Assembly (NCBI GenBank): GCA_030681615.1
Contig: JAUXSA010000196.1
Coordinates: 1-34,807, forward strand
From: Bacteroidota bacterium
GTDB taxonomy: Bacteria; Bacteroidota; Bacteroidia; B-17B0; Aurantibacillaceae
Reading direction: 5' to 3'
DNA: 34,807 bases
The notes under the pieces are model-generated. The model had not been told where the DNA came from. It saw only the letters and a list, made by a program, of their open reading frames with translations, and made no database searches. Position numbers and translations under genes: made by a program. Of the stretch, positions 9,637 to 30,308 are shown one piece after another (the stretch's first letter is position 1; each line of letters opens with the position of its first letter).

Positions 9637-9649
9637 CCCGTTATTTACT

Positions 9650-10597
9650 ATGAGCATTTTTAAAAAATCATTTTTTATTTTTTCGCTTGCGCTATCCTCT
9701 AATGTAATGTTCTCGCAAGACGACCTTTTAGATCTGGTAACAGATAAAAAAGATGAGAAACCACAAAAAGTATATGCTACATTTAAGACCGTACGCATTG
9801 GTAATGCTCAAACTATAGAAACTGTAAAGAAAAAACATTTGGATTTCAGAACCAGTCACCGTTTTGGAAATATCTATAACTCCGATCTTCCTAACCCAAT
9901 TAATACAACCGGCCAAACCTTTGTGGGTTTTGAAGGTGCCAGCGATATCCGTTTTAGTTTTGATTATGGTCTTACCGACGATATTACCATTGGTATTGGC
10001 CGCAGCAGAATGAACCATATTGTTGATGGAAGTATAAAATGGAAGCTTTTAAAACAAACTGCAAATTTTAGCATGCCAATTTCTCTTGCTTTCTTTTCTA
10101 GCACAGGTTACACACACGATCTGCCATCAACTATTTATGGTGGTATTATAAAAGATTTCGAAACAAATGAATTGCACCGTTTTAATTATTTCAACCAAAT
10201 AATTATTGCCAGCAAAATTACTAACTGGTTGTCGTTAGAATTATTACCAAGTTATATGCACCGTAATTTTATTAAAGAACGTGTAAACAATAAAGGGGAA
10301 GCCGATGTAAACGGGTTTTTTAGTATTGGTTTTGGCGGCAGGATAAAATTAAACAAACGCACCAGCTTTATTGGCGATTATTTTTATAATGTATCTCCTT
10401 TCTATGCTAATAATGATAATGCTTTCAACCCATTATCCTTAGGCTTTGAAGTTGAAACAGGTGGTCATGTGTTCAGTTTATTCTTTACCAACGCCGGCGG
10501 CTTAATAGAGAATAATTTTATTCCGTATACAAACGAAACATGGACCAAAGGGCAAGTAAAATTTGGTTTCTGCATCTCGCGTACCTTTGCTCTTTAA
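9650..10597 (+). CDS. DUF5777-family outer-membrane beta-barrel protein
   Basis: A 315-residue protein with a signal peptide (about 1-22, ending MFSQ) followed by DDLLDLVTDKKDEKPQKVYATFKTVRIGNAQTIE in short, the N-terminal pattern of DUF5777 barrels. The body alternates beta strands (LDFRTSHRFGNIYN, FSFDYGLTDDITIGIGRSR, SIGFGGRIKLNKRTSFIGDYFYN) and ends in aromatic VKFGFCISRTFAL, consistent with an outer-membrane barrel. The family's function is not established; it is often found beside YceI-like proteins, as here, which suggests a shared envelope or redox-related role. The start ATG at 9650 is 13 bases after the YceI stop. Confidence 0.82.
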   Translation: MSIFKKSFFIFSLALSSNVMFSQDDLLDLVTDKKDEKPQKVYATFKTVRIGNAQTIETVKKKHLDFRTSHRFGNIYNSDLPNPINTTGQTFVGFEGASDIRFSFDYGLTDDITIGIGRSRMNHIVDGSIKWKLLKQTANFSMPISLAFFSSTGYTHDLPSTIYGGIIKDFETNELHRFNYFNQIIIASKITNWLSLELLPSYMHRNFIKERVNNKGEADVNGFFSIGFGGRIKLNKRTSFIGDYFYNVSPFYANNDNAFNPLSLGFEVETGGHVFSLFFTNAGGLIENNFIPYTNETWTKGQVKFGFCISRTFAL

Positions 10598-21756: not shown

Positions 21757-21783
21757 TATCCGCAAAAATAACTAAGGAAAACA

Positions 21784-21807
21784 GAGGGGACAGCAGTCCC
21801 CTCTTTT
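21784..21807 (+). promoter_or_regulatory. Terminator-like hairpin in the rimP leader
   Basis: GAGGGGAC (21784-21791) pairs perfectly with GTCCCCTC (21796-21803) around the loop AGCA, followed by TTTTATT. It is a GC-rich intrinsic-terminator shape that ends 16 bases before the rimP start and has no upstream same-strand gene to terminate. This placement suggests attenuation of the operon, which is inference. Confidence 0.7.
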
Positions 21808-21819
21808 ATTGTTAAAAAT

Positions 21820-22284
21820 TTGATATCAAAAGAACATATTTTAGCGCTGATAACAGAGCATTTGGGTAACGGGCCTATTTTTGCAACAGGAGTAAAAATT
21901 GGATCGGACAACCAGATAAATGTTTTTTTAGACGGTGATGATGGCGTGACAATTAAAGATTGTGTTGGCTTAAGCCGGCACCTTGAAAAAAGTTTAGACG
22001 AGAAAGGACTTGATTTTGCTTTAGACGTTAGTTCGCATGGCGCCACAACGCCACTGATACTGCCGCGACAATACAAAAAGCATATTGGACGCGAATTGGA
22101 GATCAAACTGGAAGACGGAACAAAAACAGAGGGCTGTTTAGTTGAATTTAATGGCGATGAGATAGTTTTAGAGAACAGTGTGAGAGAGAATAAGCCAATA
22201 GGAAAAGGAAAAGTTACAGTAGTAAAAAAACAAATAATAAAATATAATCAAATCAAAGAATCAAAAGTTAAACTCAAATTTTAA
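21820..22284 (+). CDS. rimP: Ribosome maturation factor RimP
   Basis: A 154-residue protein needed for assembly of the small ribosomal subunit. The N-terminal domain has NQINVFLDGDDGVTIKDCVGLSRHLEKSLDE and the family's LDVSSHGATTPLILPRQYKKHIGRELEIKL junction; the C-terminal domain is a small SH3-like barrel (GCLVEFNGDEIVLE). Start is TTG at 21820, with no in-frame ATG or GTG upstream that makes sense. It is first in the rimP, nusA, infB operon, 12 bases before nusA, behind a structured leader. Confidence 0.94.
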   Translation: MISKEHILALITEHLGNGPIFATGVKIGSDNQINVFLDGDDGVTIKDCVGLSRHLEKSLDEKGLDFALDVSSHGATTPLILPRQYKKHIGRELEIKLEDGTKTEGCLVEFNGDEIVLENSVRENKPIGKGKVTVVKKQIIKYNQIKESKVKLKF

Positions 22285-29096: not shown

Positions 29097-29447
29097 TTAT
29101 TTTAATTTATTGGTTTTTGTATCAGGGAAAACAACCCAGGGACGAAAGCTTTTTGCTTTTTCAAAATCCATATTGGCATAAGAAATTACAATAACTATAT
29201 CCCCCAATTTTACTTTTAATGCAGCAGGGCCATTCAAACAAATCACTCCGGAACCACGTTCGCCTTTTATAACGTAAGTAATTATTCTTTCGCCATTATT
29301 TTTATTTAGAACGTGAACCTGTTCGTTCTCAATTAAATTTGCAGCCTCCATCAACTCCTCATCAATTGTAATACTGCCAATATAATCCAGCTCTGCCTGT
29401 GTAACAGTTACACAATGCAATTTAGATTTAATAACCTGAATTTCCAT
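29097..29447 (-). CDS. panD: Aspartate 1-decarboxylase
   Basis: A 116-residue pyruvoyl enzyme that makes beta-alanine for pantothenate. The self-cleavage site is Gly24-Ser25 in [10 protein letters not shown]; Lys9, Tyr57 and the [22 protein letters not shown] segment (quoted in short: [14 protein letters not shown]) are conserved. It starts with ATG. It is first of the unit panD, flippase-like, rfaE2. A TAAATTTG box is 7 bases before the ATG, which implies a very short or absent leader. Confidence 0.97.
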
Positions 29448-29462: not shown

Positions 29463-29549
29463 GGATTTTTTATTCGTATTAAGCGTTATAAAACCCAACT
29501 AAATCAATAACTTTACACAATTTTTGCATTTAAAAAACGTTATATAATT

Positions 29550-30308
29550 CTGAAAAGACTCGCCACCATAATCATTGCAATTTTAATTTCTTTTAACTCT
29601 TTTTCACAAGAAAATGACGGTTATGGCGTGCATTTACCCAAATTTTATAAACAAAAATTACATTTTGGTTTTACTATTGCCGGAAACTCAACCGATTTTA
29701 GATTAAATCCAAAACCCAACTCGCAATTTCCGGATACGGTAATTGGCACAACACGTTACCGCATAAAAACAGTTTACTCTCAACCGGCTCCCGGTTTTGC
29801 TATTGGCATTGTAAGCGATGCGCGTTTGCACGATTATTTGCGTATTCGTTTTACACCAAGTATTAGTTTCGCCTCACGTAAAATAGAATACCGTTTATCT
29901 AATGAAACGCGCGATAGTTCTAAAGTATTCCAGAAGTTAGTTGAATCGGCTTTTTTATTTTTTCCTCTAGAAGCAAAGATCCAATCTAAACGTTTGGGCA
30001 ATTTTAGCGCTTATGTTATTGGCGGCGGCGGTTACTCTTTAGATCTTGCCTCACGAAAAAAAGCGGCAGGCGTAAGCAGCGGCGGGCCAAACCAGTTAGA
30101 TGATAACGTAAAATTAAAACGCGACGATATTTTTTATAGTGCCGGAGCGGGAACTGATTTTTATCTTGAGTTCTTTAAACTTGGCATAGAACTGAAATTA
30201 TTAATAGGCACAAAAAATTTATTGCGCCCCGAAAATAGTATCTTTACTAATAGTTTAGATAAGGTGCGCTCACGCATGGTGGTTTTTACCGTTACGTTTG
30301 AGGGTTAA
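29550..30308 (+). CDS. porT: PorT-family outer-membrane protein (type IX secretion)
   Basis: An outer-membrane barrel of the PorT family, required for type IX secretion in gliding and pathogenic Bacteroidota. It matches in LHFGFTIAGNSTDFRLNP, PGFAIGIVSDARLHDYLRIRFTP, FLFFPLEAKIQSKRLGNFSAYVIGG in short stretches, and SLDKVRSRMVVFTVTFEG at the C-terminus. The first standard start, GTG at 29628, would leave no signal peptide. Reading upstream in frame gives a good one, KRLATIIIAILISFNSFSQ, directly after CTG (29550) or ATT (29547); no ATG, GTG or TTG precedes it. I use CTG 29550 (252 residues). A non-standard start or a base change is implied. It is divergent from panD, and the FAD oxidoreductase gene follows. 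Confidence 0.82.
   Translation: MKRLATIIIAILISFNSFSQENDGYGVHLPKFYKQKLHFGFTIAGNSTDFRLNPKPNSQFPDTVIGTTRYRIKTVYSQPAPGFAIGIVSDARLHDYLRIRFTPSISFASRKIEYRLSNETRDSSKVFQKLVESAFLFFPLEAKIQSKRLGNFSAYVIGGGGYSLDLASRKKAAGVSSGGPNQLDDNVKLKRDDIFYSAGAGTDFYLEFFKLGIELKLLIGTKNLLRPENSIFTNSLDKVRSRMVVFTVTFEG

Follow-up and report, generated by a model that had tools for sequence, protein, structure and literature searches.

The porT gene of the window, as we call the whole 34,807 nt stretch of Bacteroidota DNA that was analysed, is predicted to begin at a CTG codon, and none of the whole copies of this gene found in the genus has ATG at the corresponding place. Six bases upstream ends a conserved, promoter-like element that the first-pass annotation of this DNA had missed. 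The reading that we prefer, with a probability of about 0.65, is that of a true CUG start that would be kept weak by selection, under the kind of ECF sigma factor control associated with type IX secretion system (T9SS) genes. The features concerned are listed in Table 1.

The porT frame is open from 29511 to 30308 of the window and reads ...RYIILKRLATIIIAILISFNSFSQENDGYGVHLP..., with KRLATIIIAILISFNSFSQENDGYG directly after the CTG at 29550. Three in-frame, near-cognate codons lie just 5' of the signal peptide (ATA 29544, ATT 29547 and CTG 29550). The signal peptide follows the CTG (29550-29552) directly, and no in-frame ATG, GTG or TTG precedes this codon. The first of the three conventional start codons to occur in frame is the GTG at 29628, and the product from there is 226 aa long and lacks the signal peptide. 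Translated from 29511, the frame matches the porT/sprT family NF052311 at 178.6 bits (profile positions 2-239 of 239, cut-off 125), compared with 170.8 bits without the upstream residues, and the barrel domain is matched by Pfam family PF13568 (OMP_b-brl_2). PorT has the features of an outer-membrane barrel with a signal peptide, the hydrophobic stretch having been recognized by eye, and its export is predicted. The first-pass annotation had described a signal peptide in frame with the barrel but without ATG, GTG or TTG in front of it, and this is borne out by the translation and by the stop-free frame in 40 of 40 whole copies of the genus. It had also expected that gene callers limited to these three codons would lose the signal peptide, as the mechanical list of open reading frames indeed does here, starting from GTG 29628. 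Genes for an LPG-synthase-like membrane protein and an FAD-dependent protein flank the porT region, one on each side. Elsewhere in the window (21772-22284, plus strand), rimP probably starts at TTG 21820, its frame having no ATG nearby.

Table 1. Features of the porT region, in coordinates of the window.
Feature	Position	Strand	Evidence
porT/sprT CDS, 252 aa, type IX secretion / gliding outer-membrane barrel	29550-30308	+	NF052311, PF13568
Predicted start codon CTG of porT	29550-29552	+	CTG in 26/40 whole copies; others TTG, GTG, ATT; ATG in 0
Signal peptide, about 19 residues (LKRLATIIIAILISFNSFS)	29550-29606	+	Translation; stop-free frame in 40/40 whole copies; cleavage site by eye
panD, aspartate decarboxylase, divergent neighbour of porT (context only)	29097-29447	-	PF02261, 161.4 bits
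AAT, -35-like element of putative ECF-type promoter (inside ACACAAT)	29519-29521	+	AAT 16/17 nt before CGTT in family
CGTTAT, -10-like element of putative ECF-type promoter	29538-29543	+	CGTT in 85/87 family upstream regions
TAACTTTA, resembles sigma-A -7 box TAnnTTTG; possible second promoter, leader about 30 nt	29508-29515	+	Direct reading; role inferred

All 40 genomes sampled from the genus carry porT, in 42 copies. Two of these were left out of the counts, one that is cut by a contig end (G016) and one that is split into two frames and has an ATG (G005), leaving 40 whole copies. A comparison of the first porT codons in close relatives, which had been proposed as a check, gave CTG as the commonest start (26 copies in 24 genomes), followed by TTG (7-8), GTG (5-6) and ATT (1), with ATG in none. 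Counted back from the glycine of DGYG, the start codon is exactly 23 codons away in 38 of the whole copies and 24 codons away in the other two; a rule based on this distance, trying 23 codons first, gives CTG 26, TTG 8, GTG 5 and ATT 1. A second rule, taking the first in-frame NTG past the promoter box described below, picks out the identical CTG copies wherever it is applicable, which it is not in one G002 copy without CGTT. Within the genus, the starts that depend on the rule are those of G020 (TTG becoming GTG) and G027 (TTG one codon before its GTG). Between start and DGYG, the 40 copies contain no stop in frame, as against 113 and 50 in the other two frames, so the open upstream frame is not due to chance. 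Since G003 and both tandem copies of G014 read TAA TTT CTG, with an in-frame stop one codon upstream, CTG is the sole plausible start there, while G017 lacks any NTG from the stop to the signal peptide and has ATT in the start place. A non-AUG start that keeps both its place and its codon in independent genomes points to a true CTG start for porT in this genus, with initiation at this codon predicted from the alignment of the copies. Tandem porT duplicates occur at G014:C14:482287-483915 and G002:C1:2429224-2430858, all four copies having CTG, and G082 carries two copies on separate contigs. The split copy (G005:C20:24161-24894), whose two frames overlap and whose genome, also of the genus, measures 2.3 Mb, is either a pseudogene or an assembly frameshift, and is the only copy in the genus with an ATG start.

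Ten other genes of the window were compared with up to 20 relative stretches. Among the 102 comparisons there were 75 with ATG in place, 14 with ATG within four codons, 8 with GTG, 3 that were not aligned and 2 with another codon, the reference positions having been taken from the starts in the window itself, a choice that favours ATG. None had CTG, which argues that the CTG of porT is not a habit of the genome; in the same relative stretches, porT has CTG in 13 of 20. The family sample comprised 87 porT copies in 84 of 87 genomes. Outside the genus the start codons depend on the rule used: TTG is found in genera g7 (6 of 8 copies) and g10 (15 of 21), and ATG starts include those of G057, G059, G067, G073, G074, G078, G086 and the three g3 copies, which, like the ATG of the split copy G005 within the genus, count against the preferred reading. 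For the class, the 90 best-scoring porT genes were taken (a few higher-scoring ones being skipped) from a draw of 149 genomes, of which 140 had a match. Seventeen of the 90 lack an ATG anywhere in the interval from the upstream stop to the mature protein.

Other accounts of the start can be weighed against these data. A base error in the assembly had been offered by the first-pass annotation as the other option, and the genome of the window is in draft form, with 199 contigs. The same CTG is nevertheless found in 26 of 40 whole copies from 24 genomes, among them the single-contig genome G001 and the two-contig genome G002 (in both tandem copies), and an error of this kind can be practically dismissed. 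Besides CTG, the upstream codons ATT 29547 and ATA 29544 had been put forward as candidates, both being in frame and open in the window, with ATT as the codon preceding the start in 7 of 40 whole copies. At these positions, however, the relatives have, among others, TTT, TCT, AAG CAT or a stop, the start is not at a constant distance from CGTT (see below), and ATT is the sole choice in G017 alone. Given the TAA TTT CTG of G003 and of both G014 copies, CTG is the member of the original list that stands, and a start at ATT or ATA is improbable. Translation might instead begin at GTG 29628, the first ATG, GTG or TTG in frame, and yield a protein without a signal peptide; yet this codon lies inside the conserved protein, its site is GTG in 9 of 40 whole copies, and the frame upstream of it is open in all 40 and encodes what appears by eye to be a hydrophobic signal peptide, making such a start even less probable than one at ATT or ATA.

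Upstream of the predicted CUG start, the window has CAAT at 29518-29521, then 16 bases, then CGTTAT at 29538-29543. In the searched stretch 5' of porT, CGTT is present in 85 of 87 family members (20.9 expected from shuffles) and in 53 of 90 class members (24.4 expected). AAT-CGTT pairs with a spacing of 16 or 17 nt number 54 and 13 in the 87 family regions (67 in total), and 27 and 5 in the 90 class regions (32 in total), compared with about one in shuffles for any given spacing. Pairs 12 nt apart also exceed the shuffles (about 1), with 11 in the family, where this is the next commonest spacing, and 9 in the class. Within the genus, AAT lies 15-17 nt before CGTT in 38 of 42 porT copies, and in 36 of these 38 the CGTT is 12-16 nt from the start. 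A spacing that is fixed between AAT and CGTT and variable between CGTT and the start codon looks like that of a DNA element rather than a translation signal. CGTTAT was considered as a general ribosome-binding signal and rejected, both because it keeps a constant distance to the upstream AAT and not to the start codon and because the 50 nt ahead of 303 crude open reading frames contain only seven examples, of which four belong to porT. Given the CGT box and the fixed spacing, the conserved AAT-N16/17-CGTT before porT is a putative promoter of the ECF-sigma type (SM6/SigP-type). At 9639-9652 of the window (plus strand), CGTTATTTACT is found directly before an ATG start, with no AAT at the right spacing as judged by eye.

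ECF start sites lie about 10 nt after the C of CGT, a distance that would put the 5' end of the porT mRNA 2-6 nt before the start codon. The message may then be nearly leaderless, the position of the box being the guide to its 5' end. A box like TAACTTTA is also present in many relatives. By the -12 to -5 placing given for the sigma-A box in PMC9723704, where TAnnTTTG is described as the -7 box, it could produce a leader of about 30 nt, which speaks against a nearly leaderless mRNA. Almost no structure was found by RNA folding near the porT start. Among class members with a short distance from promoter to start, 15 of 18 have ATG, so a weak start is not required by a short leader, and the idea that the one forces the other is unsupported in the class.

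In the whole genome, the exact motif CAAT-N16-CGTTAT is not enriched, with 15 matches compared with 20 for a reversed control; four of the 15 lie 9-22 nt before a reading frame with a signal peptide recognizable by eye, porT among them. Both genes for PorU-like T9SS sortases (L297 and L298, more than 1,229 bits each) are preceded by AAT-N16-CGTT, so that the putative promoter motif appears to be common to porT and other T9SS genes of the genome, and AAT-N16/17-CGTT also stands before three other exported-protein genes. The porU genes have ATG starts 32-38 nt after CGTT, as counted from the sequence, which does not fit a weak start that goes with the motif. In the only other T9SS gene examined, sprA, there is no motif directly before the gene and one 134 nt before the open frame. 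Among the loci scanned, no convincing case of the motif was seen before a sigma-factor gene. Matches to TIGR02937 above the cut-off number 26 in the window genome, some of which may not be ECF factors, and with this many candidates the acting sigma factor cannot be named.

Two of the exported-protein genes were followed in 30 loci each, among the matches listed. The first encodes a protein of 1,169 residues (L230 1530-3026, L237-L266) that has matches in 39 of 40 genus genomes and no Pfam match in its first 499 residues. The promoter motif is present in 28 of its 30 loci, and in these 28, again among the matches listed, GTG is found at +12 in 24, GTG at +14 in one and ATG at +12 or +13 in three. 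An ATG at +9 also occurs (21 of the 28), and three loci that lack it keep the GTG at +12; where present, the ATG at +9 rather than the GTG may be the start. The second gene encodes a barrel protein (L227 1534-2154, L267-L275) with TTG 13 nt after CGTT in nine of nine close orthologues, eight of which have the full promoter motif. A paralogue group with about 45% identity to it mostly has ATG at +12 (8 of 11 loci), which is evidence against a weak start as the rule. An exported protein of 217 residues (L223 834-1484, minus strand), without a Pfam or NCBIfam match, has ATG at +22 after the same motif. One can tentatively imagine a small regulon, governed by an ECF sigma factor and made up of genes for the outer membrane and for secretion, in which nearly leaderless mRNAs with deliberately weak starts, kept gene by gene (CUG in porT, GUG in the 1,169-residue protein, UUG in the barrel protein), would couple one alternative sigma factor to low translation; we regard this wider scheme as doubtful.

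For porT itself, the steps could be as follows. The gene would be transcribed from AAT-N16-CGTT, a promoter of the ECF-sigma type such as drives T9SS genes in other Bacteroidota, and the position of this promoter would set the 5' end of the mRNA some 2-6 nt ahead of the start codon. An mRNA that lacks a Shine-Dalgarno site, has hardly any leader and starts with CUG, UUG or GUG would give rise to little PorT, as the ribosomes of this phylum would initiate poorly at CUG. A CUG start is read as fMet by the initiator tRNA. Initiation at the CTG would include the signal peptide, and PorT would be exported in small amounts. Selection would then keep the start weak, and with it PorT output low and dependent on the activity of the ECF sigma factor. 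The suggestion of the first-pass annotation that a rare start could limit PorT synthesis holds as far as the rare start is concerned, which is real (CTG in 26 of 40 whole copies); the limit is plausible, and we infer the low output from the type of start. In summary, porT is probably held at low output by a weak start, in a genus that avoids ATG at this place.

Whether the weak start is selected or merely tolerated bears directly on this reading. If little PorT were needed, selection for ATG would be relaxed and CTG could simply have been inherited from the ancestor of the genus. In line with this, CTG is common to most of one large clade, so that many copies represent a single event, and inheritance from one CTG-bearing ancestor accounts for much of the CTG count; GTG and TTG starts, moreover, are not rare in crude calls of open reading frames in the same stretches as the control genes (55 of 303). 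A PorT tree was built from 74 mature sequences of the 87 family copies, leaving out G005, G016 and 11 copies of g2, g4, g6 and g9 with uncertain starts. It requires at least 20 changes of start codon overall and at least 11 among the genus sequences, and six between ATG and non-ATG, with no ATG in 40 genus sequences; the tree was made by a quick method, has many open forks and hand-read codon labels, and does not show the genus as one clade. In a published reconstruction, as reported in passages of PMC5622118, 202 of 241 GUG switches and 43 of 79 UUG switches were to AUG, and AUG changed to CUG in 2 of 61,358 AUG starts; CUG starts are among the rarest in bacteria. If the UUG-to-AUG share (54%) applied to porT, the chance of seeing none of 11 changes lead to ATG would be about 0.0002 (some 2 in 10,000), a hand estimate that takes its 11 changes from the quick tree with its hand-read codons, and uses the UUG share because a CUG-to-AUG share is not given in those passages. 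GTG is also only one transition (G-to-A) away from ATG. With at least 11 changes in the genus and none of them to ATG, the weak porT starts are probably held by selection and not only tolerated, and we consider mere tolerance rather unlikely.

CUG is retained across much of the genus, and relatives in the family often have TTG or GTG, so that selection and tolerance can be told apart by a single-base change, and this test case sits in a phylum without Shine-Dalgarno sites. For annotation, gene callers limited to ATG, GTG and TTG would strip the signal peptide from porT in such genomes, and existing gene models are likely to be too short.

Promoters resembling the one before porT have been described in two other members of the phylum. 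In Flavobacterium psychrophilum, according to the parts of PMC9723704 that deal with this motif, porU, gldN and further T9SS-related genes lie downstream of a motif with a CGT box at -10, which is ascribed to ECF sigma factors and is induced when nutrients are low; the SM6 table, which as printed gives a selection, does not include porT. In Porphyromonas gingivalis, passages of three papers report that the ECF factor SigP binds the porT promoter (PMC4800418), that RNA polymerase with SigP transcribes porT in vitro (PMC8265659), and that the porT transcription start maps 44 nt before the gene (PMC8050853), which argues against a simple transfer to the present case; the starts obtained in vitro (PMC8265659) differ from the mapped one. 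The likeness thus consists in a CGT box at -10 with T9SS genes downstream, porU being shared with F. psychrophilum and porT with P. gingivalis. There, ECF factors have been assigned; here the candidates number up to 26 TIGR02937 matches.

The infC gene has an AUU start that serves autoregulation by IF3. The resemblance to porT lies in a rare start that is kept in evolution and limits synthesis, as it would in porT. PorT is an outer-membrane barrel and not a translation initiation factor, the codons are CTG, TTG or GTG, with ATT in 1 of 40 whole copies, and there is no known feedback route. The infC-like autoregulation invoked in the first-pass annotation accordingly finds no support, since an AUU start on the gene for IF3 is replaced here by CTG on the gene for PorT, and what the porT copies have in common is a start that is not ATG, rather than ATT. 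A search of the literature for the infC start turned up only a chloroplast study, and in the open-licence literature CTG start codons combined with Bacteroidetes gave only phage work, and type IX secretion combined with non-canonical start codons gave nothing.

The mRNAs of the phylum Bacteroidota are without Shine-Dalgarno sites, as stated in a passage of PMC6847099. Leaderless mRNAs resemble that of porT in having the start codon within a few bases of the 5' end, a position that is predicted in the present case. They differ in that elsewhere, according to the same source, it is AUG that stands at or near the 5' end, whereas here it would be CUG. Within the PorT/SprT family, of which the protein is a member by its score against NF052311 (178.6 bits, cut-off 125), the 90 relatives from the class have, by a crude signal-peptide rule, ATG in 52, TTG in 26, GTG in 3, CTG in 2 and none of these in 7, while in the genus examined here it is CTG that is conserved.
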